From assembly GCA_964035545.1 (NCBI GenBank), contig OZ037765.1, positions 35,167,504-35,231,503 of the forward strand: a stretch of DNA of 64,000 nucleotides. The letters run 5' to 3'. Below are positions 15,801 to 32,736 of this stretch, one piece after another. Made by a program: the position numbers and the translations under genes. How positions within the stretch are numbered: position 1 is the first letter of the stretch; every line of letters starts with the position of its first letter. A model generated the notes under the pieces. The model was given only the letters and a program-made list of their open reading frames with translations, made no database searches and was not told where the DNA came from. Source of the DNA: Bugula neritina. Taxonomy: Eukaryota; Bryozoa; Gymnolaemata; Cheilostomatida; Bugulidae.

Positions 15801-18800
15801 TGTGACCAGTAGAGTGTGACTAACAGAGTGTGACTACTGGAGTGTGACTAGTAGAGTGTGACTAGTAGAGTATGACTAGTAGAGTATGACTAGTAGAGTG
15901 TGACTAGTACACTGTGCATTACTATAGTAGAGTATGACTAGTAGAGTATGACTAGTAGAGTGCGACTAGTACACTGTGCATTACTAGTAGAGTATGACTA
16001 GTAGAGTGTTACTAGTAGAGTGTGACTAACAGAGTGTGACTAGTAGAGTGTGACTAGCAGAGTGTTACTAGTATAGTGTGACTAGTAGAGTGTGACTAGT
16101 GAGTGTGACTAGCAGAGTGTTACTAGTATAGTGTGACTAGTAGAGTGTGACTAGTAAAATGTGACTAGTAGAGTGTGCATTACTAGTAGAGTCAGAATGT
16201 TTGATAAAGAGACTTACATTTTTAAAAATGGTGTACTCCGGATCTCTGAGATTGACACAAGCGATCTCTTCAAGCGGAGCTCCGACAACATAAGTCAAGG
16301 TCACTAGCAGCATTATAAGGGATCCAAATATAAACACTAATCCCACAGACCTGCAACCGAGAAATCACTAGAGGTCCTTGTGCATTGTTTAGTGCAACTA
16401 CCAACTAAATGTGTAACACAGTCTTAGTTATTGTCACAATCAATGATTATATTTATAGCAACAGTGACAGGCATAGTGATGGTTTTATTAGTCACAATGT
16501 ATTTTAGTCCTTAGTACCAAACAAATTTGTGATTAATAGAGATCTACTGTAACTACAAGTGGAGAATGGTATAGATCAAGTTTGTATAATTCTTAGTCAT
16601 CATATAAGAAGCTAAACTCACGCCATCAGCAGGAGACCACCACAGTTACTAACTTTTCCTCTCTCTGTTGGCGTACTGTTCTTATCACCACAGCAACAGC
16701 AGCCGAGGCAACCAAACACCAAACCAACCAGCTGCAGCAGGAATATTAGCAGCACGAAGCAAGTCAGTGCCACTCCTCCAGCCCACCTAAGATATCAAAT
16801 CAGCAACTTTTTAGTTTGCTTTTGACAAATTTAATAATGTATTCGCAGTAGCTAACTAAATATTATTTTCACGGGCTTGAAAAAACCGCTATACTCCCCT
16901 CTCTCCTACTAGGCGTTGAAAACCACCTGGCTCAACCACCAGGAGATAAGGCAGCTGGTATAGCCACTTATCAGTGCTAAAGAACCTGGTGTAACCACTC
17001 AATACTGATAGTGATTGCAATACCTGTATGTTTCCAAATCATCAACTGTGAGACTTCCGGTGAGAGTCATGTTTCCAAGGTTACCTATGGTACTTGTAAG
17101 ATTGGAAATTGAGTCAAAGAGGGTGAGCATGTCACTTACTCCCCCCAAAGCGTCTCCCACTACTGTTTCAAAGTCTGACACCATGCCAGTTATTGCTGAA
17201 ATTCACATCACAGAAGATAAATTAACGGCTCTGCTTTGAGTCACATTAGACTTACAACAGAAGAAGTTTTAGAATCTAGAACTTCTTTTCACATTGTAAC
17301 AAATTCTGCAGCACATTCTGAACATCATGCAGATTCTTTGCCTCAAACTATATCACATCACTGCTGGTTGAAACGTATTATCACACAGAATTATTTATGC
17401 TGAAGCCATTTTGAAAATAACCAATAACTTACACATCCTCTGATAATATAAAATGTGTTATGGTAGTCCACTAGACTGTACTAGACCACACCCCTAACTA
17501 CTAAATCACACCCATTGCAGCTAGACCACACCCCTAACCACCTATACAACTAGACCAATGAGAAGTCAGTATTACCCTGAACAGTGGACTGGGACTCCGT
17601 CTCTACTCGCACTGAGATGTTGTCAAACTCCTCCTGTCCTTGAATCACCAGACCGGTTAGGTTGCTGTCTTGTACGTCTTCCAGATCCTGCAGCTCCGAG
17701 GAAAAGTCCGGCATCTGAAATAATTTACAAAATATATTGTCATAGTCATATTGTCACAGTGGTGTTGTCATATTGTCACAGTGGTATTGTCACAGTAGTA
17801 TTGTCACAGTAGTATTGTCACAGTGGTGTTGTCACAGTGGTATTGTCACAGTGGTGTTGTCACAGTGGTATTGTCACAGTGGTATTGTCACAGTGATATT
17901 GTCACAGTAGTATTGTCACAGTGGTGTTGTCACAGTGGTATTGTCACAGTGGTGTTGTCACAGTGGTATTGTCACAGTGGTATTGTCATATTGTCACAGT
18001 GGTATTGTCATATTGTCACAGTGGTGTTGTCACAGTGGTATTGTCACAGTGGTATTGTCACAGTAGTGTTGTCACAGTGGTATTGTCACAGTGGTATTGT
18101 CACAGTGGTATTGTCACAGTGGTATTGTCACAGTGGTATTGTCACAGTGGTATTGTCACAGTGGTATTGTCACAGTAGTATTGTCACAGTGTTGTTGTCA
18201 CAGTAGTATTGTCACAGTGGTATTGTCACAGTGGTATTGTCACAGTGATATTGTCACAGTGTTGTTGTCACAGTGGTATTGTCACAGTGGTGTTGTCACA
18301 GTGGTATTGTCACAGTGGTATTGTCACAGTGGTGTTGTCACAGTGGTATTGTCACAGTGGTATTGTCACAGTGTTGTTGTCACAGTGTTGTTGTCACAGT
18401 GGTATTGTCACAGTGGTGTTGTCACAGTGGTATTGTCACAGTGGTGTTGTCACAGTGGTATTGTCACAGTGGTATTGTCATATTGTCACAGTGGTATTGT
18501 CATATTGTCACAGTGGTGTTGTCACAGTGGTATTGTCACAGTGGTATTGTCACAGTAGTGTTGTCACAGTGGTATTGTCACAGTGGTATTGTCACAGTGG
18601 TATTGTCACAGTGGTATTGTCACAGTGGTATTGTCACAGTGGTATTGTCACAGTGGTATTGTCACAGTAGTATTGTCACAGTGTTGTTGTCACAGTAGTA
18701 TTGTCACAGTGGTATTGTCACAGTGGTATTGTCACAGTGATATTGTCACAGTGTTGTTGTCACAGTGGTATTGTCACAGTGGTGTTGTCACAGTGGTATT

Positions 18801-21800
18801 GTCACAGTGGTATTGTCACAGTGGTGTTGTCACAGTGGTATTGTCACAGTGGTATTGTCACAGTGGTATTGTCACAGTGGTATTGTCACAGTGTTGTTGT
18901 CACAGTGTTGTTGTCACAGTGGTATTGTCACAGTGGTGTTGTCACAGTGGTATTGTCACAGTGGTATTGTCACAGTGGTATTGTCACAGTGGTATTGTCA
19001 CAGCGTTGTTGTCACAGTGTTGTTGTCACAGTGTTGTTGTCACAGTGGTATTGTCACAGTGGTATTGTCACAGTGGTATTGTCACAGTGGTATTGCCACA
19101 GTAGTATTGTCACAGTGGTATTGTCACAGTGGTATTGTCACAGTGGTGTTGTCACAGTGGTATTGTCACAGTGGTATTGTCACAGTAGTATTGTCACAGT
19201 GGTATTGCCATAGTGGTATTGTCACATTGTGTATCATGATCTTGTGATGTGTTGGCATTAGACAAAGAGCTATGCTATATCATAGTATTATGCAATGCTA
19301 TATCATAGTATAGTACAATGCTATGTCATAGTATAGTACAATGCTATGTCATAGTATAGTACAATGCTATGTCATAGTATAGTACAATGCTATATCTGGT
19401 TTAATTATGATAGCAAAGGACAATGAATCCTAACAACATGAGGTCACATTCTCCTCCTCTTTCAAAGAAAGTCAAAATCTGATAGGTTAGATTGAGAAAA
19501 TCACCAAAAACTAGTTCAAATAATGAGTCAGCGTATTTACATAAACCTGAGTTTGGGCCACTACAAGTTGTTAGTAGCTTGCTTGTGTGCAGAACCAAAC
19601 TAATGCTGCATGATATACTTCTATTTGCTGACGTATGACTTACTTGACTCATTGTGACTTACTGTGACTTACACTAATGTACTGTGACTTACTTTCATGT
19701 ACTCTGACTTACTCTCATGTATTATTACTTACACTCATCTACTGTAACTTACACTAATGTACTCTGACTTACACTAATGTACTGTGACTTACACTCATTT
19801 ACTGTGACTTACTCTCATGTACTGTGACTTACTCTTGTCTACTGTGACTTACTCTCATGTACTGTGACTTCACTCATGTACTGTAACTTACTCTCATGTA
19901 ATGTGACTTACTCTCATGTACTGTGACTTACACTCATTTACTGTGACTTACACTTATGTACTGTGACTTACACTCATGTACTGTGACTTACACTCATTTA
20001 CTGTGACTTACACTTATGTACTGTGACTTACACTCATTTACTGTGACTTACACTTATGTACTGTGACTTACACTAATGTACTGTGACTTACTCTCGTGTA
20101 CTGTGACTTACTCTCATGTACTGTGACTTCACTCATGTACTGTAACTTACTCTCATGTAATGTGACTTACTCTCATGTACTGTGACTTACACTCATTTAC
20201 TGTGACTTACACTTATGTACTGTGACTTACACTCATGTACTGTGACTTACACTCATGTACTGTGACTTACACTTATGTAATGTGACTTACTCTCATTTAC
20301 GATTACTTACACTGTCAGGGTCAAAATTGGTGCCGGCTTTCAGGTCGGTGGTGTCGGGGGCTGAGCCGCATGTAGAGCCACACGTAGCGAATGTTGAGTC
20401 GATGTCCGTAGCCAGTTGAGTCATGGAGCTATCCAGCGCGGAGATGGAAGTTTTGATTGCCTGCTTTTTGTTCTCCACGTCTGTCAGGTCGGCTATCATA
20501 TTCACCAGAACTGAAAGAAGAAGGAAACCAGGCTAAACTGAAGGGTATGGTAGGCCTGTAACTGACAGAGTGATACTATATACTGTAACTGATAGAGTAA
20601 TACTATATACCTGTAACTGATAGAGTAATACTATATACTGTAACTGATAGAGTAATACTATATACTGTAACTGAGAGAGTAATACTATATACTGTAACTG
20701 AAAGAGTAATACTATATACCTGTAACTGATAGAGTAATACTATATACTGTAACTAAGAGAGTAATACTATATACTGTAACTGAAAGAGTAATACTATATA
20801 CCTGTAACTGATAGAGTAATACTATATACTGTAAGTGAGAGAGTAATACTATATACTGTAACTGAAAGAGTAATGGTGTGGTGGTTCGTGGAACTACCAG
20901 CAGCACAACATGTAGGATCGCGTAATTGACCCGGAACAATGGATAGCCAATTAGCGTAGTTGATAGTTAGCAGCAATTGTAGTTTCCCGCTGCTAAGTCA
21001 GTCGAAGCTAGAGTGTGAAATAGATTAGATGTGTAACTTGTTGGAAATAATGTATCGTGTTTTTATAATGTATAATTGTGTATAAAATATACTCGTTCAC
21101 TCGACTTAGCCTGGTGCAGTTCTATATTAGATAAATAGACTCTCTGGATAGCATATCAACCCTAAATCTGAAAACTATAACAGTGGTGGCAGCGGTGGGA
21201 TAGTGCATCCAAGATGGAGACTGAAAATGCTGAAACTCAACCACCGGCAATCGAAGGTGAGCGTAGAGACAATGCTGTAGAGACAATGCCTGTTAACCAT
21301 GTAGTAGAAGAGCGAAGGGTTCCGCGAGAACTAGCTGAAGACCGCTACAGGTTAAAGGCGCCCACCTTCACGGGTGAAGAGGAGGTGGAACAATTTATCC
21401 AAGAGTTTAGCGACGTAATGGACGTCGCTCAGTGGCCCCCTAGGGTGGCCCTGCTGAAGCTTAGAATGGCATTGATGGACAAAGCCAAGCCCTATGGGCT
21501 GGGCGTAGACATTGATAATATCTTTGCTTCTCTGCGGGCCCGCTTTGGCCTCTCGACTACAGATGCCAGGGCCCGATTACAGAGGTTGCGGCGTGATCCC
21601 CGCACCCCGCTGCGGGAGCATGCCACCGCGGTCATGAAGCTGGCACAGATCGCGTACAGCGACTTGCCCCCAGTCAACCGCGAGAGGTACACCCTCGACG
21701 CTTTCATAGCATCTGTCGACGATCTGGGTCTCCACCACCAGTTTCTAGCTAGGGGAGTCACCACCGTTGAAGATGCTCTGACTGAGGGGGAAGCTTACCT

Positions 21801-24800
21801 CCTAGCTAACCAAATGCATAAAAGTCGCGGAAGCTCCCGCCAAGTGGAGATAGACCGCGCAGACACGGCCGCGGGACAAGGGGAGGAAACCCCCGCCGCG
21901 GCTGCCGTGTCCCAGTTGGCGACGGCATCAAAAGTCACTCAACTGACGGACATGCTAGCCAAGCTGATAGCAACACTGACCCCACAAAACCCAGTGAGTA
22001 CCGCCCCTGAGCCCATGCGGCCATTGGCGCCGCCACAGGGAGAAACAGTCAGTTTTTGCTGGGAGTGCGGAAATCAAGGACATTTCCGCCGATATTGTCC
22101 CTTCCTAAATCAGGGGTTAAACTACCGCGGCCCGCAGATGTTCCCACCTTCCGCGGGCCGACGAAACCTCTAGGGAAGAAGAAACGCAGGTCACCCAGAC
22201 GGGCACCGCGTACTGGCAACCAACAGTGGCAACAGCCGCGACGGACCAGCAAGGGGCTTCGCCCCGCGGCTGCCTTTTCTATGCCCCTTCACAACAGATT
22301 CACAGGGCTACAAGTCCAAGAATCTGGATGGGAGCACACAAAGGTAGCTGAGAAACCAGCCTCGGCACCCCCGAGGCCTACCCATCACCGCCCCAAGAGA
22401 CCTCCTTCGCGACCCAAAGCGAGGGAGGTACTCCCTGCGAGAGTCAGGCCTGAAGGGAGAGTTCAGGTGCAGCCCCATGGGAACAGCTATTTCTTGCCCG
22501 GTAAACTGGAAGGCAAAGCTGTTACTTTTCTCATTGATTCGGGCTGTACCACAAACCTCTTAAGCCGCCAACTCTTCGACACCCTCAGTGCTAGGGTCAG
22601 GGGCGAGATGGAAGCATACGAAGGGGAATACGGCACCCTAGCTGACGGGTTGTGCCTTCCCTTCTATGGTATAATTGAGCTGACGGGACGAGTCCGCGAT
22701 CAAACGATCCAAGAGACGTTCATCGTCAGTCAGCTCAAGGAGGATGCTATCCTCGGGATGCCGTTCCTTAAACGGCACGGATGTCACATAGATTTTAGCA
22801 GATCTGCAATGATGATGTCCGGGCGGGAACTCGCCTGCGTCGACAAGTTCGGCTGCCCTTTAGTGGGAGGTGTGCAAGTGGTACGCAACCGTACCATACC
22901 AGGCCGCTCCCGGGCTACCATTCACTGCAGGGTGAATAGTAGCCGGATCTCTGGACTCGGGGTGGTTGAAGGCGCGCACGAAAAGATCCAACTTGCCAGC
23001 AGTCTGAATCAGCTGACTGAGCAAGGGGAGATCTTAGTGCAGTGCGTCAACCCCTTTACCGAGCCTATCAAGCTCCCGGCTGGGTCGATGCTGGGCCGTT
23101 TTCACTCTGTTCAAGAGGGAGACGTAGGCCCGTCGCTGGGTGATGCGACAGAGGCCCCCCCTCGACACCCTATTCAGGGACGAGGGGCAGTCCCAACACA
23201 TCTCCGGGAGTTATACGAGACGGCCAGTGGTGGCTGCGCGAGTAACAGAGAGCGCCAAGCTATGGCCAAGTTACTACGCGACTACGGTGATGTGTTCAGC
23301 AGCGGAGAGCATGACGTGGGACTGACTGGAATTGTCAGACACGAAATACCGCTGACTGCAGGGACAGTCCCTGTCCGGCAGCCCACACGCAGGTTGGGGC
23401 CGGAGAAAGAGAAGGAGGTTAGCCGACAAGTACGGGATCTTCTGGACCGGGGACTGATAGAGCCCGCCCATAGTGCGTGGAGCTCGCCAGTCGTACTGGT
23501 CCGGAAGAAAGACGGCAGTTGGCGGTTCTGTGTGGACTACCGCAAACTCAATAGCGTAACCATACAGGACGCCTACCCTCTACCTCGTATTGACGAGTCA
23601 TTGGACGCCCTAGCCGGCAGCAAGTACTTCAGTACGTTAGACTTGCTAAGCGGCTATTGGCAGGTTCCTCTGAGTCCCGACGCCCAAGAGAAAGCGGCGT
23701 TTATCACACGGGACGGTTTGTGGAAGTGGAAGGTGCTGCCCTTCGGGTTAACCTCCGCCCCAGCCACCTTCCAGAGGCTGATGGAACAAGTCCTTAGCGG
23801 ACTCCATTGGAAGACACTGCTGGTCTACCTCGATGATGTCATCGTAATCTCTCCAGACTTCGAGACACATGTCAGTCGTCTGCAGGAGGTTTTCGAGAGA
23901 CTCCGAGGTGCCGGTCTTAAGCTCAAACCTTCCAAGTGCGCTCTGTTGCAGCCGGAGGTCAAGTACCTGGGGCACGTTGTCGGTCGAAACGGCGTGGCAA
24001 CGGATCCCGAAAAGGTACGGGCAGTAGAAGACTGGGTCACCCCTCAAGACTTGACCGGACTCCGGGCTTTCTTGGGGCTGGTAGGGTATTACAGGCAATA
24101 CATACCAGACTTTGCGGGCATAGCCCAGCCGTTAAACCGGCTTACCGCAAAGGGGGTGACGTGGCAGTGGACTCCAGTCGAACAAGAAGCGTTCGACCGC
24201 CTCAAGGGCTGCCTCCTAACGGCGCCCATCTTGGCCTACCCAGACCCCACTCTGGAGTACATCTTAGACACGGACGCCAGTGACCAGAATGTTGGCGCTG
24301 TGCTGTCACAAGTGCAGGAAGGCCGAGAAGTAGTCGTAGCCTACTACAGCAAGTCTCTCTCTCCCGCTGAACGAAATTACTGCACTACCCGCAAGGAGCT
24401 GCTGGCAGTAATCAAGTCAGTGAAGCACTTCAGACCATACCTATATGGCAGGAAGTTCCGGCTGCGTACGGATCATGCCTCGCTGATCTGGTTGTGCAGG
24501 AGAGCAGAGCCCTCTAGTCAGGTCGCCCGGTGGCTCGAAATCCTAGCTGAATTCTCGTACCGGATCGAACACCGACCGGGCAAGAGACACAGCAATGCGG
24601 ATGGGTTGAGCCGCCGACCTGACGGAGGTTGCAAACAGTGTCTCAACATCGAGAGGAGGGATGGAGGTCCCCCTCGATGCGAGTTGGAGACGCTGGCTCA
24701 TCACGGAGCACCGTTTGACTGGGATCAAGGTCAACTCAGGCAAAGAGTTGACGAGTCCCCGGAGGATATACAAAACCTCCGCGCCAACCCTGTACTGGCC

Positions 24801-27800
24801 GGTAATGTTCGAGAGCTGAAGAAGCTCCAAGAAGAGCTGCCTGGAGTCGTGGCAGACATCTACCGGGCCAAAAGGGAAGGGCGACGACCCAGCGAGGAAC
24901 GCATAAGACAGGGATGCGCCGAATTCCGGCTATACTGTCAGCGTTGGGACTCGCTGCGGATCGGGCAGGATGGGTTGCTAACCATCTCTCTAGCTGCCAG
25001 CGGCAGACACCCGGAAAGGAAGAGGGTAGTCTGCCCCACAGCCATCCGCCGTGAGTTGATTTGGGATACTCACAAGCAGGCCCACGCAGGGGTCAAGCGA
25101 GTGATGTCCAAATTACGACTCCGGTGGTATTGGCCGCAGATGGAGCGTGACGTCCGGCTCAGAGTCAAACAGTGTGAGATCTGCCAGGCCAGTAAGCATA
25201 GCCGCCCCCCTGGTGAAGCAGGACGGCGGAGGCTATATGCTGGTAGGCCCTGGCAAGTAGTCGCTGTAGACCTGGTCGGACCCATGCCCCTGACCCCCAG
25301 AGGCAATAATTGGATCCTAGTACTAACCGACCACTTTACTAGGTGGGCGGATGCTCTGGCTATCCCAGATGCATCAGCCCCAACAGTGGCCAGGGCACTA
25401 GACCAACACGTATTCTGTTATTTTGGGCTTCCCGAACAGATACACTCTGATCAAGGCGCTCAATTCCAGTCTCAACTGATGAGCGACCTTTGCCACCTCT
25501 GGGGAGTAAATCAGAGCAGGACCACCCCCTACCACCCTCAAGGTAACGGGGTGGTGGAGCGCAACAACCGGATGTTAGGTGATGCGCTCCGGAGTCTCCT
25601 CCTTGGACGAGGTCAAGAGGAATGGGATACGGTGTTGCCGCAAGTCATGCGTGCATACCGTAGCACCCCACACACCAGTACTGGTGAGACCCCAAACCTC
25701 TTGATGCTCGGGAGAGAGACTCGTGTCCCTGACCATCTCACCTATCACGTTCCAGAGCAAGATAACTCAGTCCACGAGTATGCCAGTGAACTAGTGGAAC
25801 GGATGAAGGCCGCACACGAGATACTGCGTCAACAGCAGTGGAAGGTGCGGCATGAAGATTCCGATGAACCACCCCTCTATCAAAGAGGAGATAAGGTGTG
25901 GATGGTCAATTACCGTAGGCGCCGCGGACAGGCTGATAAGCTGAAGCCTAAGTTCGTAGGCCCCTACGTGGTCGTCGAGGCTATGCCCAATCATACGTAC
26001 AAGATTGAGCGCTCAGGACAGGTGTCTATCCAGAATGAGTCTCGCTTGAAACCGTATTGGGCTAGCCCCGGCGGAGTGGGAGAAGCCCCCCCGTTGTTAG
26101 AGCCCAGGAGGCAGACAACGACGCGCGGGCGACGGCGGCATGGACCTGAATACGAAGTGGTCATACCGCGGGAGGAAAACTTGGTGAGAGAGGAGCGGCA
26201 GCTTTTGTCAACAGAAGCGTGTCCGCCACCGCCAAGTCTAATTCCATCACTTCCAGCAACCGAGCCGGTTCCGGAAGTGCAAACCCCCACGGAGGGAGGG
26301 GCTCCATCCGGAGAACAAGAAGAGGTGACCACTAACGGTGAAGTAGAGACGCCATTTGAGGCCCCTACTAACGAACCGGCAAGCGTGTCACCCCCCCTAG
26401 ACAGGGGACAGCGTACGAGGCAACCCCCCGCATACTTGAAGGACTTCGTATGTGACTGCGTTAAAAGCGGCACACATGAAAGTCTAGGGGAAAACCGTAC
26501 GAGAAAAGAATCGAGCAAATGTGGGAGTTGTCAACACCACGGAAATATCAACTTTTGTATCGGCGGAAGTAGGAACAAAATTCATCCGCCGGGTGCACAA
26601 AGTCTTAGTCACGCACCCCAACCACGTTGCTCGATCTTTTCATACGCTGATGCAGTCAAGAGTAGACGTGTTTCTAAGCAGTAGTTCAAACCATTTCACA
26701 TATTCAGTATGTCTTACGACAACAGATCGTGGGGTGAGTTAACTATATCTTAATACGAAACTAGATTGCATCGCTCAGCTCTGACTCACTGAGTCAATCG
26801 AGCTGGAGATAGGTTAGTGAAATACCGTAGTAAGAACTCAGTTTGACTTAGAGATTTTTATAATCTCATTGCAATACGGTTCTATCTGACTATTCACTAT
26901 CATTAATCTCTACGAGGTAACTGAATTAGGAGTTGCCAAGCTGTTCAAGCTGACAACACAGCAGTGTAATGTACTAACACTGTTGAAACTTTTTCAGATT
27001 ACACTCGACCCGCTACAACCAGGGTACGGGATAGAACACGTCCCGCTCCATATCCGGAGGACTATGCTAGTGGTGACCGGCCTGAGCCACTACGCCGCCG
27101 TTGGCGGTGGGTGTCTCCACAAACCGAAGAAGAAATAGAAACAGCCTGGGGGTCCAGAGGACGGACGAGATGCCAGATCTGTGGTGAAGATTGCGCCTCT
27201 CACCGCTCCCTTAAACTACACGTCAATGCTCATCTCCTACTGACCTTCTGCCCCTGCGGGTACAATGATGTGTATCCCTACCCCGTCACCAGACACAGAG
27301 CGGCGGGCTGTTTCCCTGGAGAAAACTATGTGGTCGACGCTAAGCTGTACCCAGAGTTCCTCACACATATACGACCTCTGGTAAAGAAGGCAATGCTACT
27401 AGCCGTTCTATCCTCGGGGTTCCAAAGTGTGTTAGACAACGCCCGCCAACAATCCCCGTTGGTGTCTGACCGCCCTCCAATTACCTACACCCCCGAGGAA
27501 ACTACATATCCAGAAGAAGGAGAGATCTCCCCTACCCCGGCGAAGAGACGGACCAGGTCCCCCAGTCCACCATTACGCCGCAGACGGACACCGTCCCCAG
27601 ACCCAGTACGACTAGCCACAGTAGAAGAACGCCTCCTACGATTACAAGAAGAGTTCACCCAGCTGGCGCCAGATCTACTCAACACTACCACAGGACTCTT
27701 CCAGCTGAAGGGATCCGTATGCCGTATGAAACGGAAACTGCGTACATGCCAAGCCAAGCACCGGCGTGCCCAACAAGGACTCTAGTATGCTACCCGGAAT

Positions 27801-30800
27801 ACTCCACATTTGGTGAAGAACCAAACTCGTGTAAATGCTTAACTGCTAGACAGGTTATTCCTTGTCTAATACCACAGCTAGCTAGTATTCCTCGTCTATC
27901 TACAGCTGGCCAATTGTATGCAACGGATCGTTATAACGACTCTGTGTATTATTATTATGTCTCTTCCTGTATATTATGTATTATTTTTGTCCACTGATGT
28001 ATGCAATTACTATTGAATGTTTTTTTTTATATATATATCAGAAAGATGGCTTTCTGCTGGTGGGGGCGGTGTGGTGGTTCGTGGAACTACCAGCAGCACA
28101 ACATGTAGGATCGCGTAATTGACCCGGAACAATGGATAGCCAATTAGCGTAGTTGATAGTTAGCAGCAATTGTAGTTTCCCGCTGCTAAGTCAGTCGAAG
28201 CTAGAGTGTGAAATAGATTAGATGTGTAACTTGTTGGAAATAATGTATCGTGTTTTTATAATGTATAATTGTGTATAAAATATACTCGTTCACTCGACTT
28301 AGCCTGGTGCAGTTCTATATTAGATAAATAGACTCTCTGGATAGCATATCAACCCTAAATCTGAAAACTATAACAATACTATATACCTGTAACTGATAGA
28401 GTAATACTATATACTGTAACTGACAGAGTAATACTATAGGTATACTAAGGCTTATACTAAACTTTAGAATGTTTGTCAACATACCTGGATCCAAGGCTAA
28501 GAGTTGTGTGAAGGTGGCATCAATTCCAGACTGCTGACTAAGAGACTCCTCTACAGCCCCGCCCACTATAGGTCCAATATCTGTCACATGTGAAAAGGTC
28601 AGATTAGATATTAAACTGAGTTCTAAGAAATATTCTGCTTCATCATTCAACTTTCATGTTGAGTGGCAGAAACAGATTCAACTGTTTTATTATTGATTCA
28701 ACTTATTTCTATAATAACTGCTTCTGCAGCGTAATAAACAAAGGTGAGAGGTCAACTGTATTCAGGCAGGTCAACATGCTGCTAACTAGGTACTTGATTT
28801 AACTTGTCAACAGCAAACTATGGGATGACAACTTCTCAATACAAGGGTCATAATTTCAACTTGTATCATAGTAATATGTATACTATTACAGTATCAGTTT
28901 GCAGTAGCTTGATAAGAGACAACTCTGACATATAGAGGAGTTATTCCACCCTGCTAGATATATAATATTCCAACTTACTGTTGAGGTCTCTCAGCATGAC
29001 CTTTGCTGTGAAGTTGAACCCGTCTAAAGCCACGTAATTGATTTGCTGAAAGTAATAGGAAACACTCATTAGAGATCAATGCGCTCATATGATACAACAT
29101 GCAGATGAATTAACCTCCTACAGCGAACTATTTCCCTATTATTACTAACTTAGTACATTGACCTCTCCTTTCATAGACCTACACTTACCTGCAACTATAC
29201 GGGGGGGGGGGGGGGGGACTAAAGAGAACCTAAACTTCCTTAACTTACGTTAGTAGAGAATTACAGAAATTAAACAGATGTATGTATTCTATGTGTGGGT
29301 GGCTGACATAACCCAACAGCAAATCAAAGAAGTTCCTACATTCTCAGATTCAACACTGGTTGTGGCAGCAGCAAGTAAACATCAGCTTTGCTAGATTGAG
29401 GCTTAACATCTCTAGTAGTAAACTGTAGACTTAGCTCAAGTGGCAACTTAAATTGTATGTTGCTAGGAATTTTGGTAAACAGAAATATGCTTTGATATTA
29501 AGAAGGTCCACAATGCAGCTCTAAACTTTACTTATCCAATAGACTCTCAGCTCACAAGACTTATGGCATGCAGATGTGCTGTCTGCCAGGATATTTATAG
29601 CAAGTTTCTCGTCAATCAGTTGGTAAACTATTCGCTGCCTATGACTCATATAAAGACTTTCTAGAAGCTGTTAGATGTAGGTAGATCTATAGTGCTGTAG
29701 TAAATAGATCGTAGATACAGTTATGATGCTAGAATGTTCCATGACATTCTAGAAAGAGTTACCGTAATGGTGTTGTTGCCGAAGCTCTGGAGGTCTACGG
29801 TATTCTCCTGAACCGTCTGCGTTACTTCTGAGAACAGAGTTGACATTCTCTCGTTAGTCACGTACGTGCAGACCATGCCGCAGCTACAACGAGGATGGTA
29901 TTTCATATAACAATAATAAAAATCTCAAGCAAGTTTATATAAAGAGTATATATATATATATGTACATATGGAGTACATATACTTAAAGAGTATATATACA
30001 TATACATATGGAGTATATATATAAAGAGTATATATATATATACATATGGAGTATATACAGTATATAAAGAGTATATATATATATAAATATGGAGTATATA
30101 ATTATAAAGAGTATATATATAAAGATATACAATTAATTATCCTAAAAAAGACATGCTAACTAAAACAAATTACTGCACGGCACACAGAACAATCCCTTAA
30201 CAAAGACTAAGGATTCAGTCATTCAACCTGAAGGGAATGCAGATCAATAACAGCTCAACCAGTCACTGTGACAGCATAGAAACAGTCTGTAATATCAGTT
30301 GGACAACTATTCAACTTTGAACATAGCATTTAGCTTTATGAAGCAATCGAGAAAGGTTTAGCAACATTCATATCTGAAAGTTTAAACCCGTTCACATTTG
30401 CTGTCAACAGCTCTAGCACTATGATGTCATATCCTTCTTCCTATCTAATATATTAACACTAAGATGTTCAAGGGCAAAAATCTAGATAAAACGAGTGTCA
30501 ATAAAATCTCCTTGAACATGAGATTACGAAATAGCATCATACAAATCCTCTTGTACTCAGAAACCTAAATACTTGAGAATATTCAGCAGGTAAAGAGGGA
30601 ACAACTTACAAGAGGAAGGTGCAGCTGAGGAACAGAGTGATGATGTAACAACACCTCCAGGCAGACGTATTGTCGTCTCTCTTCTGCATCATCTTTCCTC
30701 CGCAGTTTGAGCAGCAGCAGCGGCAGCAACAGAAGCAAAACCCGACGATTGGGAATATCAGGAAAAACAGAAAGCCGATGACGAGGCACGCAGCGTATCC

Positions 30801-32736
30801 GCCGGCCCATTTCCCGAGCTGAAAAGTAAAGCAACGTTTATTTCATTTGTAAACTTTTGTTTCTAAACAGGATGTAGTAGTCTATTTGCAGCCCTCCTAT
30901 TTCTATTACAGTAACACAAATTATATTTAATGGGATAAATAAGTATAAGTTCTAGGTTTTGGAAGTTATGCTCTGTAACTGCGACTGTGGATGTCCCCAT
31001 CTAGCCAGTTACAGTCATGTTGTTATCATCTTAACAGACAAACGACATGGTGAAAGTTACACTTTTACCTTCTGGTAAACAAGTAGATTTCTACTGTATT
31101 CAGCTGGTTCAAACAATTAGCTCATAACTTGGTAACTTAATATTTGAGTCATAACTTGGTCTCTTAATATTTGAGTCATAACTTGGTAACTTAATATTTG
31201 AGTCATAACTTGGTAACTTAATATTTGAGTCATGACTTGGTAACCTTAACCTGAAGGTAGCAGCTGGAGTAACCCAGACATAAAATAACGGAAGATACAT
31301 AATTGAGTGGATTTGAAATTAATTCAAAGCTAATATACCTTGAGACTCAGTGAATGCCTCTATTACTTTAAACAATAAGGCTAATTCACTCGGTACAGGT
31401 GTAGTTAAACACAAAGCTAGGTCTACCTTATAGCTAACTGCTTATAGCTACTTTATAATATGAAATTGAATTACGTACTGGACTAGTTCAAGACAGCTCG
31501 AGGACTACAAAATCGATATCTTTTTATTAAGAGCCTTTTGTGTGCAGACAAAGGGGGTTGAAGGGGGTATTGTTATGTCCCTGTATGTATAGTGGGTTGT
31601 GTCAACCGCATTACTTGCATTTCGTGAAGTTTGTTTACTGTAGTTACTAGTTACACTACGTTAGTGTCTGTGACTACACCACTATTATAATATCTAGCTT
31701 TTTTATCATAAAAACAATATAATATAACATAATATAATATAATATAATATGCTATATATAACATGAATATAATATATAACACATCAAATAAAAACAAAGG
31801 GTTTTAGGACGTGCAAATCTGTGATAACAGAGGAAAGTAATAACTGCATGTAAAGCTATGACTTATACGTGCAGATATAAAACACTCACCTCTAGTATAG
31901 TACTCTGACCTCTAGTATAATGCACTTACCTCTAGTATAGTACACCTACCTCTAGTATAGTACACTTACCTCTACTCCTCTAGTATAGTACACTCACCTC
32001 TAGTATAATACACTTACCTCTAGTATAGTACACTTACCTCTAGTATAGTACACTCACCTCTAGTATAATACACTTACCTCTAGTATAGTACACTTACCTC
32101 TAGTATAGTACACTTACCTCTAGTATAATACACTTACCTCTAGTATAGTACACTTACCTCTAGTATAGTACACTTACCTCTAGTATAGTACACTTACCTC
32201 TAGTATAGTACACTTACCTCTAGCATAGTACACTTACCTCTAGTATAATACACTTACCTCTAGTATAGTAGTCTGGTCAAAGCTGACTGAACCATCAACT
32301 AGTCCTAAGAAAGTATCTGCAAACAAATCAAAAGTGCAATCAACACAACAAAATTATTTGTTACTATCTAGTTCAAGTATATTATATACTAGATGGTATA
32401 TATACTGTCTAGTATATATACTATCTTATACACTGTCTAGCATATAAACTATCTAGTATACAGATGACACCCACCCCAAGGTGTTTCCTTGCCGAAGGAT
32501 ATTCCCACAAAGCCCTGCATTCCATTGATGAGCGGCAGCAGACCCTGGTACTTGTACTCATCCGGCTTCACTATATACTCTATCCCCTCTGGAATGGCAG
32601 CGTAGGTCAGCTGACTCTCCTCGTCAGCATAGTTACCGTTAGAGTCAGTGATCGTCTTTGGCGACAGCTCCTTGTTAGGATTACCATGGCAACAGACTAT
32701 GTATAGTGACAGTAGGGTCAGCAGGCAGCTCTTCAT
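12808..32736 (-). CDS. PROM1: Prominin, pentaspan membrane glycoprotein (complete)
   Basis: Seventeen exons: 32736-32475, 32316-32258, 30818-30610, 29883-29763, 29045-28979, 28580-28485, 20510-20311, 17714-17576, 17195-17024, 16786-16622, 16350-16218, 15712-15500, 15028-14783, 13973-13764, 13524-13363, 13150-13035 and 12868-12808. They total 2631 nt, 876 residues plus TAA, the usual prominin size. The protein has an N-terminal signal peptide (MKSCLLTLLSLYIVCCHG). TM1 ends in the Cys cluster CFCCCRCCCSNCGG and is followed by TM2 (CCYIITLFLSC). After the first extracellular loop, TM3 runs into a second cluster (GCLGCCCCG), then TM4 (VGLVFIFGSLIMLLV). A second large loop precedes TM5 (WFSLGWSIAFMVLGL) and a short basic cytoplasmic tail. 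Prominins organise cholesterol-rich membrane protrusions such as microvilli and ciliary membranes. The symbol denotes the family; orthology to PROM1 versus PROM2 is not resolved. Confidence 0.94.
13187..13305. repeat. Minisatellite carrying GTAAGT motifs
   Basis: About eight irregular copies of a TATACTTACACTG-like unit lie in the intron between prominin exons 13524-13363 and 13150-13035. On the transcribed (minus) strand each reads GTAAGTATA, a good 5' splice-site match, downstream of the genuine donor at 13362. Confidence 0.8.
14236..14782. repeat. 26-bp minisatellite adjoining a prominin 5' splice site
   Basis: Roughly twenty copies of a unit like ACATACAGTACTACAGTACA followed by GTATAC, with a local ACAGTACT trinucleotide-like expansion near 14515-14570. 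The array begins exactly at the donor of exon 15028-14783; on the minus strand most units contain GTATGT, the same hexamer as the real donor. The 227-codon open frame across it is repeat-derived. Confidence 0.9.
15780..16195. repeat. 14-bp minisatellite (AGTAGAGTGTGACT)n
   Basis: About 28 degenerate copies in the intron between prominin exons 16350-16218 and 15712-15500, starting about 20 bp past the donor of the former. Unlike neighbouring arrays its units carry no GTAAGT on the transcribed strand. Confidence 0.88.
17740..19232. repeat. 14-bp minisatellite (TTGTCACAGTGGTA)n, ~1.5 kb with higher-order repeats
   Basis: More than one hundred tandem copies, with GTA/GTG/ATA/TTG variants at the unit end. 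Diagnostic variant blocks recur at a spacing near 490 bp (for example the TCATATTG pair at about 17986-18015 and again at 18477-18506), so a 35-unit block has itself been duplicated. Because 14 is not a multiple of 3 and the unit lacks stops, long open frames of a 14-residue period run in all three plus frames; none is a gene. It lies in the prominin intron between exons 20510-20311 and 17714-17576. Confidence 0.93.
19263..19395. repeat. 23-bp minisatellite
   Basis: About five copies of a unit containing ATAGTATAGTACAATGCTAT, in the same prominin intron as the 14-bp array. Confidence 0.8.
19640..20310. repeat. 20-bp minisatellite carrying splice-donor sequence
   Basis: About 33 copies of ACTGTGACTTACACTCATGT with single-base variants. 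The array abuts the donor of prominin exon 20510-20311 (minus-strand GACAGT|GTAAGT). Read on the minus strand nearly every unit contains GTGTAAGT, reproducing that donor. Parts of the array are duplicated as blocks (19860-20040 resembles 20100-20280). Confidence 0.92.
20562..20874. repeat. ~27-bp minisatellite, gypsy target site
   Basis: About eleven copies of a unit containing GATAGAGTAATACTATATAC. The Ty3/gypsy element at 20877-28375 is inserted inside it, and two more copies follow the element at 28376-28432. Confidence 0.88.
20877..21182 (+). repeat. Element 1 5' LTR
   Basis: 306 bp, TG...CA, identical by eye to 28070-28375. A TATAAAATATA stretch near the middle is a plausible promoter core. 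Confidence 0.93.
21184..21201 (+). promoter_or_regulatory. Primer-binding site of element 1
   Basis: TGGTGGCAGCGGTGGGAT begins one base after the 5' LTR. It is complementary to the 3' end of animal tRNA-Leu(AAG) as I recall it (ends in CCCACCGCTGCCA plus CCA). The identical 18-mer follows the LTR of the element at 60 kb. Confidence 0.8.
21214..22173 (+). CDS. gag: Gag polyprotein of element 1
   Basis: 319 codons. The central retrotransposon gag region (capsid-like: the LKAPTF...VEQFIQEF start, then LRARFGLSTTDARARLQRLRR and LREHAT) is followed by a zinc knuckle C-WE-C-GNQG-H-FRRY-C at about residues 286-299, which binds the element RNA. The start ATG lies 13 bp past the primer-binding site. 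The last 118 nt overlap pol in the -1 frame, with a slippery site before the TAG at 22171. No lesions. Confidence 0.93.
   Translation: METENAETQPPAIEGERRDNAVETMPVNHVVEERRVPRELAEDRYRLKAPTFTGEEEVEQFIQEFSDVMDVAQWPPRVALLKLRMALMDKAKPYGLGVDIDNIFASLRARFGLSTTDARARLQRLRRDPRTPLREHATAVMKLAQIAYSDLPPVNRERYTLDAFIASVDDLGLHHQFLARGVTTVEDALTEGEAYLLANQMHKSRGSSRQVEIDRADTAAGQGEETPAAAAVSQLATASKVTQLTDMLAKLIATLTPQNPVSTAPEPMRPLAPPQGETVSFCWECGNQGHFRRYCPFLNQGLNYRGPQMFPPSAGRRNL
22116..22177 (+). promoter_or_regulatory. Programmed -1 frameshift signal at the gag/pol overlap
   Basis: Slippery heptamer GTTAAAC (22116-22122; gag frame G TTA AAC), a 5-nt spacer, then an 8-bp perfect stem CGGCCCGC (22128-22135) with GCGGGCCG (22153-22160) and a 17-nt loop. 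Loop bases TTCCC (22141-22145) can pair with GGGAA (22173-22177), giving an H-type pseudoknot. GTTAAAC is the heptamer known from equine arteritis virus frameshifting. The pol frame is -1 to gag, as required. Function is inferred. Confidence 0.75.
22122..26684 (+). CDS. pol: Pol polyprotein of element 1 (protease, RT, RNase H, integrase)
   Basis: One open frame (open from about 22056), entered by -1 frameshift at 22122. Numbered from 22056: aspartic protease active site DSG at residue 161 with ILGMPFL further on; reverse transcriptase with FCVDYRKLN, LPFGLTSAPATFQ and the YLDD catalytic box at about 591; RNase H TDAS at about 740; integrase zinc finger HHCC about 1006-1043; integrase D1072, D1132 and E1168 with exact D-35-E spacing; then a GPYVVVE module typical of Ty3/gypsy integrases. 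No chromodomain is seen. The C-terminal ~170 residues are Pro/Glu/Thr-rich and unmatched. All catalytic residues are present, so the protein is probably active. Confidence 0.95.
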   Translation, partial: LPRPADVPTFRGPTKPLGKKKRRSPRRAPRTGNQQWQQPRRTSKGLRPAAAFSMPLHNRFTGLQVQESGWEHTKVAEKPASAPPRPTHHRPKRPPSRPKAREVLPARVRPEGRVQVQPHGNSYFLPGKLEGKAVTFLIDSGCTTNLLSRQLFDTLSARVRGEMEAYEGEYGTLADGLCLPFYGIIELTGRVRDQTIQETFIVSQLKEDAILGMPFLKRHGCHIDFSRSAMMMSGRELACVDKFGCPLVGGVQVVRNRTIPGRSRATIHCRVNSSRISGLGVVEGAHEKIQLASSLNQLTEQGEILVQCVNPFTEPIKLPAGSMLGRFHSVQEGDVGPSLGDATEAPPRHPIQGRGAVPTHLRELYETASGGCASNRERQAMAKLLRDYGDVFSSGEHDVGLTGIVRHEIPLTAGTVPVRQPTRRLGPEKEKEVSRQVRDLLDRGLIEPAHSAWSSPVVLVRKKDGSWRFCVDYRKLNSVTIQDAYPLPRIDESLDALAGSKYFSTLDLLSGYWQVPLSPDAQEKAAFITRDGLWKWKVLPFGLTSAPATFQRLMEQVLSGLHWKTLLVYLDDVIVISPDFETHVSRLQEVFERLRGAGLKLKPSKCALLQPEVKYLGHVVGRNGVATDPEKVRAVEDWVTPQDLTGLRAFLGLVGYYRQYIPDFAGIAQPLNRLTAKGVTWQWTPVEQEAFDRLKGCLLTAPILAYPDPTLEYILDTDASDQNVGAVLSQVQEGREVVVAYYSKSLSPAERNYCTTRKELLAVIKSVKHFRPYLYGRKFRLRTDHASLIWLCRRAEPSSQVARWLEILAEFSYRIEHRPGKRHSNADGLSRRPDGGCKQCLNIERRDGGPPRCELETLAHHGAPFDWDQGQLRQRVDESPEDIQNLRANPVLAGNVRELKKLQEELPGVVADIYRAKREGRRPSEERIRQGCAEFRLYCQRWDSLRIGQDGLLTISLAASGRHPERKRVVCPTAIRRELIWDTHKQAHAGVKRVMSKLRLRWYWPQMERDVRLRVKQCEICQASKHSRPPGEAGRRRLYAGRPWQVVAVDLVGPMPLTPRGNNWILVLTDHFTRWADALAIPDASAPTVARALDQHVFCYFGLPEQIHSDQGAQFQSQLMSDLCHLWGVNQSRTTPYHPQGNGVVERNNRMLGDALRSLLLGRGQEEWDTVLPQVMRAYRSTPHTSTGETPNLLMLGRETRVPDHLTYHVPEQDNSVHEYASELVERMKAAHEILRQQQWKVRHEDSDEPPLYQRGDKVWMVNYRRRRGQADKLKPKFVGPYVVVEAMPNHTYKIERSGQVSIQNESRLKPYWASPGGVGEAPPLLEPRRQTTTRGRRRHGPEYEVVIPREENLVREERQLLSTEACPPPPSLIPSLPATEPVPEVQTPTEGGAPSGEQEEVTTNGEVETPFEAPTNEPASVSPPLDRGQRTRQPPAYLKDFVCDCVKSGTHESLGENRTRKESSKCGSCQHHGNINFCIGGSRNKIHPPGAQSLSHAPQPRCSIFSYADAVKSRRVSKQ
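26709..27785 (+). CDS. Third gene of element 1: spliced zinc-finger protein
   Basis: Predicted as microexon 26708-26733 (ATG at 26709, preceded by TATTCAG, followed by GTGAGT), intron 26734-26997 with branch-like TACTAAC and TTTTCAG, and exon 26998-27785. The join keeps one frame: 8 codons plus 1 nt meet 2 nt of the next exon, and the frame is open to the TAG at 27783. The protein has a C2H2 finger (C-QI-C-x12-H-VNA-H), a second C-x-C-x12-H-x4-C finger, an Arg/Ser/Pro stretch (RTRSPSPPLRRRRTPSP), and a C-terminal helix (TVEERLLRLQEEF...TGLFQLKGSVCRMKRKL). It sits where env lies in errantiviruses but has no signal peptide or membrane segment. A homologue exists in element 2. The role is unknown; RNA or chromatin binding is a guess. 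Confidence 0.8.
27786..28069 (+). other. 3' untranslated region and polypurine tract of element 1
   Basis: No open frame of note. It ends in a conserved block, GCTTTCTGCTGGTGGGGGCGG (split here: GCTTTCTGCT then GGTGGGGGCGG), that is also present before the 3' LTR of element 2; the purine part would prime plus-strand synthesis. Confidence 0.75.
28070..28375 (+). repeat. Element 1 3' LTR
   Basis: 306 bp, identical by eye to 20877-21182, directly followed by the interrupted ~27-bp minisatellite. Confidence 0.93.
29937..30125. repeat. AT-rich minisatellite
   Basis: Five or six copies of a ~33-bp unit built around AAAGAGTATATATATA and ACATATGGAGTATAT in the prominin intron between exons 30818-30610 and 29883-29763. 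Confidence 0.8.
31128..31240. repeat. ~26-bp minisatellite
   Basis: Four copies of a unit containing TTGAGTCATAACTTGGTAAC in the second prominin intron. Confidence 0.75.
31886..32270. repeat. 20-bp minisatellite made of a duplicated exon-intron junction
   Basis: About nineteen copies of CACTTACCTCTAGTATAGTA. The right end overlaps the 3' end of prominin exon 32316-32258, whose last 13 nt are the repeat. On the minus strand each unit reads ...CTAGAG|GTAAGTG, a copy of the true 5' splice site at 32257. Use of any downstream copy would read into TAG within one unit. Confidence 0.92.

Follow-up and report, generated by a model that had tools for sequence, protein, structure and literature searches.

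In elements that depend on a full-length transcript, the genomic RNA must remain unspliced and exit the nucleus even though it carries host splice sites. To our knowledge, the manner in which the unspliced RNA of LTR retrotransposons leaves the nucleus is still largely open. Among the systems that bear on this question, lentiviral Rev uses a short arginine-rich motif, and the errantiviruses, such as Drosophila gypsy, have env as a spliced third gene after pol. Within the literature searched, available in part, CERV of the Cer1 element is the one LTR-retrotransposon factor shown to be necessary for export of unspliced RNA; it is translated from a spliced mRNA that shares its first part with gag, and it is required for nuclear exit of the unspliced genomic RNA (PMC10309623). 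In plants, the accessible text of the sources describes an extra ORF between pol and the 3' LTR of the retrotransposons Bagy2, Grande and Retand, together with splicing in Bagy2 and a nuclear protein in Grande (PMC7264820, PMC11963269); the term zinc finger is absent from PMC7264820. Spliced accessory or third genes are thus already known in Ty3/gypsy elements (Cer1; PMC10309623).

The element analyzed here lies at about 20877-28375, on the plus strand as are all of its features, in a 64,000-nt stretch of the Bugula neritina genome (contig OZ037765.1), termed the window. Similar to Cer1 of Caenorhabditis, it holds a non-env ORF, here called ORF3, between pol and the 3' LTR (compared with the accessible parts of PMC10309623 and PMC3315495). 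The 5' LTR (TG...CA, ends set by eye) occupies 20877-21182, and repeat comparison places the 3' LTR at 28070-28375, with the polypurine-like GTGGGGGCGG immediately upstream. The two share a 300-nt block without mismatch (matched at 28068-28367 in the 3' copy), which suggests a young insertion. A primer binding site, TGGTGGCAGCGGTGGGA, follows at 21184-21200; the complement of its 13-nt core has 602 matches in the genome and none for the reversed control, and a search for the primer tRNA in 30 loci returned one tRNA-Gly, located away from the matched site. The gag ORF (21214-22173) encodes a CCHC knuckle close to its end, for which the Pfam zf-CCHC match (E 0.15) is below the cut-off. The pol ORF (22011-26684), in the -1 frame relative to gag, encodes protease, reverse transcriptase, RNase H and integrase, followed by a long tail, as identified by Pfam searches of the protein in pieces. 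LTRs, primer binding site and polypurine tract are all present and the pol domains follow the Ty3/gypsy order; by structure and domain order, the element is classified as a Ty3/gypsy LTR retrotransposon. It sits within a tandem array of approximately 27-nt units (20529-20901), which resumes past the 3' LTR (28376-28460), and large arrays of 14-nt and 20-nt units occur in the vicinity, at 17703-19247, 19605-20401 and 31829-32336.

The main exon of ORF3 spans 26998-27785 and contributes most of a protein of approximately 270 residues. A search of the 215.8-Mb assembly that contains the window yielded 142 scored matches from 941 candidates, and about two-thirds of those listed (counted by hand) are free of stop codons. 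A protein search recovered 59 relatives, with 43-99% identity across the covered part, while a search of viral contigs confirmed none of 31 stretches. For comparison, 80 stretches containing ORF3 copies were fetched from 79 places (L072 and L073 being one place fetched twice), five of which were already among the earlier genome-search matches. The copies were divided into family A, which is that of the window, family D, comprising nearer relatives, the more distant families B and C, and singletons, L067 and L054 among them. Against the window, the dN/dS ratio of ORF3 is 0.06-0.14 in 15 of the 18 comparisons made, the remaining three being saturated, and ORF3 is thereby shown, at the level of sequence, to be a protein under purifying selection. 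Fourfold-degenerate sites have diverged more in ORF3 than in gag of the same copies in seven of eight pairs, for example 40.5% versus 9.6% (L029/L090), 44% versus 25% (L044/L125) and 55% versus 15% (L074/L106), the exception being L054/L102, with 59.5% in ORF3 and 63.6% in gag. This pattern suggests either that the ORF3 module has been swapped between element lineages or that it changes unusually fast. Another copy, L076 (G000:C2:374786-375586), resides in an open frame of 1396 codons and is perhaps a natural fusion to an upstream coding sequence.

The sequence-only reading of this locus had proposed that the third gene is spliced, and its landmarks are present in the DNA: an ATG at 26709, a GTGAGT donor at 26734-26739, a TACTAAC motif at 26972-26978 and an acceptor ending at 26997, after which the frame stays open to 27785. 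The coding part of the start exon (26709-26733) places 25 nt between the ATG and the donor, such that the ORF3 frame resumes in phase 1 at 26998. In 40 family A copies, 79-99% identical to the window and not selected by a start-exon pattern, this exon is conserved, with 18 mismatches in 1000 cells; of 240 cells in the donor hexamer one is mismatched, compared to 405 of 8640 in the intron interior. Families B and C retain the ATG, the donor and the phase, the coding part in family C being 22 nt, i.e., 3 nt shorter and in phase. The strongest evidence comes from copies in which the intron, here numbered intron 2 (26734-26997), is missing. A pattern for the precise joining of start exon to ORF3 exon matches the genome six times and its reversed version not at all, compared to 251 matches for the intron-bearing donor pattern. 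Reading of each of the six loci (L051 and L139-L143) revealed that the intron is absent to the base and that the pol tail is unbroken up to the start exon. RNA spliced at these sites must have been reverse transcribed, and removal of intron 2 as an intron is shown by the genomic copies themselves. The six copies form at least three identity groups, whereby L139, L140 and L142 are 98-99% alike, L141 is 95-96% identical to these, and the family B copies L051 and L143 are 99% alike. The close similarity of L139, L140 and L142 raises the possibility that an intron-less copy has itself spread, in which case the intron would not be absolutely needed in cis.

The ORF3 protein may have more than one beginning, since a second donor, GAAG/GTGAGC at 21257, is located 43 nt past the gag ATG and defines a potential leader exon whose coding part is 21214-21256. 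This alternative start is missing from the sequence-only reading. We compiled 37 5' regions, each containing the primer site: 7 from a separate set of 20 fetched stretches and 30 from loci among the 602 primer-site matches. In 24 of these, an AGGTRAG motif is placed precisely 43 nt from the first ATG; 5 have the motif at a different distance, and it is missing from the remaining 8, two of which (L110 and L115) carry the weaker GGGTGAG. The loci L110, L112, L113, L115, L126, L130, L131 and L135 share the same primer site and a related gag (38-44% identical) and are devoid of the AGGTRAG leader donor. Twelve of the 30 primer-site loci have a start exon downstream by exact pattern, and the leader donor is present in all twelve; no match to the start-exon pattern occurs within 9 kb in the 10 further loci with the donor or in any of the 8 that lack it. 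Since this pattern is specific to families A, B and C, the counts are weak evidence of an association between leader donor and start exon. In 10 of the 12 loci with a start exon, the distance from the primer site is 5.5 kb, compared to 3.2 kb in the family B loci L127 and L136; these two elements are apparently shortened within pol, and family B copies keep both the intron and ORF3.

Use of the leader exon is recorded in two sources. The L144 locus, of the related family C, is a natural cDNA in which a leader with primer site and 43 nt of gag continues directly into the ORF3 exon. The short pattern by which it was found gives 1 match versus 11 for the reversed control, and proof of the junction is the reading of the locus rather than the pattern count. 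The metagenomic protein P0027, from a 5320-nt JGI contig, has the N-terminus MAEEGTELPIPRNE followed by DHTRLT, and the gag of L127 and L136 (family B), read from DNA, starts with MAEDGTELPIPLNE, which resembles it. Joining of leader and ORF3 exon is thus shown for family C and for the metagenomic relative, and, by this junction and this fusion, ORF3 can begin at the gag ATG with the first 14 gag codons. A spliced mRNA sharing the start of gag, as described for CERV, is therefore found in L144 and P0027, and from the splice sites we infer leader-exon use in the window's own family A. L144 also bears out the proposal of more than one intron in the third gene. Both exons end in phase 1, and either would consequently yield the same ORF3 frame, such that two in-frame N-termini would be available, MSY... 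from the start exon and METENAETQPPAIE... from the gag leader. Combining both in one RNA would place the gag ATG out of the ORF3 frame, and a genome pattern search in family A for a leader joined to the start exon, within about 4-60 nt, returned 0 copies.

The upstream border of the start exon differs from the one first suggested. A 26-nt microexon beginning at 26708 is not supported, in that the AG at 26706-26707 is missing in 24 of the 65 copies aligned, families B and C among them, and occurs in the other 41; the pattern for a junction of leader to 26708 gave 1 match versus 8 for its reversed control, and no copy was found to use this acceptor. The 65 are part of 75 copies found by start-exon-like patterns, and counts of ATG and donor in that set are accordingly biased. 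A better candidate acceptor is the AG at 26654-26655, inside the end of pol, which is kept in 63 of the 65 copies, even where the codon has changed, and is preceded by a pyrimidine-rich stretch; copies showing splicing to this AG number none among those examined. In the adjacent segment 26585-26640, third positions of pol are changed in 10 of 760 cells, versus 378 of 5159 over the whole pol tail, and a further RNA-level constraint may act there, ahead of the candidate acceptor.

Beyond its splice sites, intron 2 has the properties of a conserved RNA structure, which the sequence-only reading had missed. The copies of the intron that were measured are 256-276 nt long, although those from outside family A share 67-81% identity with the window intron. 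Constraint was initially gauged by divergence, and the first such measure, 4.7% in the intron versus 25% at third positions of ORF3, was discarded, ORF3 being an outlier relative to gag. With fourfold sites of gag as the reference, the divergence ratio of intron to gag is about 0.4 to 0.7 in four pairs and 1.2 in L074/L106, where the intron (18.3%) exceeds gag (15.4%); by this standard the intron appears only moderately constrained. A structural test took the place of the divergence measure. The window intron folds with -69.8 kcal/mol (z -2.9), and nine single introns from five families give z values of -2.5 to -4.2. From 58 introns, 33 below 97% identity were retained, and 21 were picked by family for a consensus. 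At a mean identity of 74%, these form 62 pairs, with 95.0% of cells paired and 13 compensatory pairs (counts are from the lowest-energy of three alignment modes); sliding the partners by 1-3 columns reduces pairing to 31-49% and compensatory pairs to 2-4. The consensus score is -72.1, compared to -35.1 +/- 4.0 in 40 column shuffles (z -9.3), and a repeat with 60 shuffles gave z -8.6; since the sequences are related, such z values are not true probabilities. Varying the alignment mode (three) and the scoring scheme (two) leaves z between -7.3 and -9.9, and the intron subsets A+D, B+C and A+B+C give -6.1, -7.5 and -8.1. Under RIBOSUM scoring the total consists of -30.0 from folding and a covariation bonus of 42.2, and under default scoring of -28.4 and 3.4, respectively.

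Four neighboring segments (21, 14, 21 and 21 sequences) passed through the same pipeline with z values of -1.3, -2.2, +0.9 and +0.6, and the reverse complement of the intron also folds (z -6.5). Structures fitted to these flanks have 80-88% of cells paired and 13, 11, 17 and 4 compensatory pairs, which become 13, 8, 11 and 5 after sliding by 2. The bare count of compensatory pairs thus does not distinguish the intron from its flanks, whereas the energy test and the slid contrast (13 versus 2) do. The conserved fold comprises a hairpin at 26776-26805 (6 pairs, 1 compensatory, 122 of 124 cells paired), a long central stem at 26806-26910 (29 pairs in four helices, 7 compensatory), a second hairpin at 26935-26954 (6 pairs, 3 compensatory), and a third at 26962-26982 that holds the TACTAAC branch-site motif (6 pairs, 1 compensatory, 123 of 126 cells paired). 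A closing helix, 26736-26742/26983-26991, joins the donor region to the start of the pyrimidine tract; one of its seven pairs is compensatory, and most of the others say little, because conserved splice-site letters pair there. An Rfam search of 26500-27100 returned no family at the gathering score and two matches far below it.

The protein itself carries two conserved Cys/His motifs, in agreement with the zinc-finger-like motifs initially proposed. The C2H2-like finger (27171-27233) has the spacing C-x2-C-x12-H-x3-H, each of its ligands being at least 90% conserved in 32 sequences, and matches Pfam zf-C2H2 below the cut-off (E 0.11; 13.4 bits versus 25.2). The second motif (27249-27311), CxC-x12-H-x4-C, has invariant first and last cysteines in 47 aligned sequences, its second cysteine and histidine being at least 90% conserved. 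An RS-like stretch, also proposed, is found in closer relatives and is not conserved beyond them. The AlphaFold model, based on 47 sequences and of moderate confidence (mean pLDDT 64), predicts a long C-terminal helix (residues 208-260; 27621-27782) ending in a basic segment, the last 30 residues containing nine R/K and no D/E. Foldseek comparison of the model with PDB folds gave none at E <= 0.001, the closest being weak matches to C2H2 finger arrays at E 0.58 or worse, and a search of PDB sequences gave one match, at E 0.75. The idea that the third gene occupies the env position as a spliced gene and is not env-like is borne out by the intron-less copies, the natural cDNA and dN/dS on the one hand, and on the other by the lack of an env match in Pfam, PDB sequences and PDB folds.

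These features allow a closer comparison with the known systems. According to the parts of PMC10309623 and PMC3315495 available, CERV resembles ORF3 in its spliced mRNA, whose first part has both frame and peptide in common with gag, and in its Cys-rich finger, and both elements contain host splice sites that must be skipped for genomic RNA. CERV differs in being a protein of 517 residues from five exons with H, M and G domains, and a structured intron is not among the features reported in the accessible text (PMC10309623); in ORF3, approximately 270 residues in length, a C2H2-like motif is joined by a CxC-H-C motif and, at the C-terminus, a long basic helix, the two proteins being compared here by domain descriptions. 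The multi-intron accessory gene had been considered unusual for this class of retroelement, which holds, but CERV had already provided a case of a spliced accessory protein in a Ty3/gypsy element (PMC10309623). Intron 2 is comparable to the RRE recognized by Rev, and to the CTE of simple retroviruses, in being a structured RNA carried by unspliced RNA alone, and Rev, like ORF3, is made from spliced RNA (PMC10309623). Unlike Rev, ORF3 has Cys/His motifs in place of a short arginine-rich motif; a sequence relation between the systems was looked for in Rfam, with no family at its gathering score. The errantiviruses likewise express a third gene after pol through splicing, yet ORF3, unlike their env, has no envelope match in the searches made. 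The extra ORFs of the plant elements, as described in the available text, differ from ORF3 in being env-like or antisense (PMC7264820, PMC11963269).

The reading we favor, at a probability of roughly 0.4, is that ORF3, made from spliced RNA, and the structured intron together form a module for splicing control and export, resembling Rev/RRE or CERV of Cer1. The Ty3/gypsy element would make its third protein from spliced RNA, and the structure of intron 2 would hold a fraction of the element RNA unspliced. Such partial splicing is suggested by two properties of the structure: it is confined to RNA from which the intron has not been removed, and its outer helices take in the donor, the branch site and the first part of the pyrimidine tract. 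Equipped with Cys/His motifs and a basic helix, the ORF3 protein would then re-enter the nucleus after its translation, bind the intron structure, and promote retention and export of full-length RNA, as Rev does with RRE or CERV in Cer1. Recognition of the intron by ORF3 is proposed because the gene plan is that of Cer1 and the structured RNA is limited to intron-bearing RNA; on this analogy we infer binding, nuclear action and export by ORF3. A more specific version, that a two-part Rev/RRE-like system has evolved in a Ty3/gypsy lineage, in which a Cys/His protein from spliced RNA recognizes the structured intron of its own gene, i.e., RNA unable to make the protein, and so feeds back on splicing, is held tentatively and with considerable doubt. 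A conserved structured RNA confined to unspliced RNA, as expected of a Rev/RRE-like system, is what the intron comparison found. The repeated reverse transcription of intron-less RNA and the existence of three similar intron-less copies, which suggest that such a copy may itself have spread, count against the export part.

The structure could also act alone in cis, masking donor, branch site and pyrimidine tract, such that splicing is inefficient and enough genomic RNA stays whole, with a different job for ORF3. The helices 26736-26742/26983-26991 and 26962-26967/26977-26982 indeed extend over the donor, the branch site and the first part of the tract, and intron-bearing donor patterns outnumber exact intron-less junctions by 251 to 6. 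Nevertheless, 10 of the 13 compensatory pairs belong to the central stem or the 26935-26954 hairpin, off the splice sites, where masking alone needs none, and we regard this explanation as unlikely, albeit a serious competitor. It is improbable that the intron serves as a packaging or dimerization signal for unspliced RNA, or as a CTE-like site for a host export factor, with ORF3 unrelated: six copies derived from intron-less RNA and one from leader-ORF3 RNA were all reverse transcribed, although the restriction of the structure to unspliced RNA would suit such a role, as would family B, whose copies retain intron and ORF3 with 3.2 kb instead of 5.5 kb in the two loci measured.

Quite improbable as well is a role of ORF3 as a DNA- or chromatin-binding factor, be it an LTR regulator, a determinant of integration targeting or a suppressor of silencing, the intron structure merely tuning its dose. 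The C2H2-like finger and the weak fold likeness to DNA-binding finger arrays point in this direction, but the Pfam match is below its cut-off, the Foldseek values are 0.58 or worse, and the basic helical C-terminus suits RNA equally with DNA. That a chance open frame lies beside pol with chance splice motifs has next to no probability, having already been refuted by conservation, dN/dS, the precise intron-less copies and the natural cDNA.

Within the literature searched, in which subscription papers were mostly outside the scope and sources were available in part, no Ty3/gypsy element was found whose third gene has a conserved structured intron; by that measure the novelty lies chiefly in this intron, and also in the ORF3 protein family and its two alternative starts. 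Protein, splice pattern and candidate RNA target are packed into about 1.1 kb, an arrangement found in many copies and across several families, and the natural cDNAs provide built-in evidence of splicing, which renders the link between protein and RNA directly testable. As judged from the fold of its intron, the element may, like some retroviruses, determine for itself if its RNA is left unspliced. If the proposed recognition is true, a Rev/RRE-like arrangement would have arisen outside the retroviruses.
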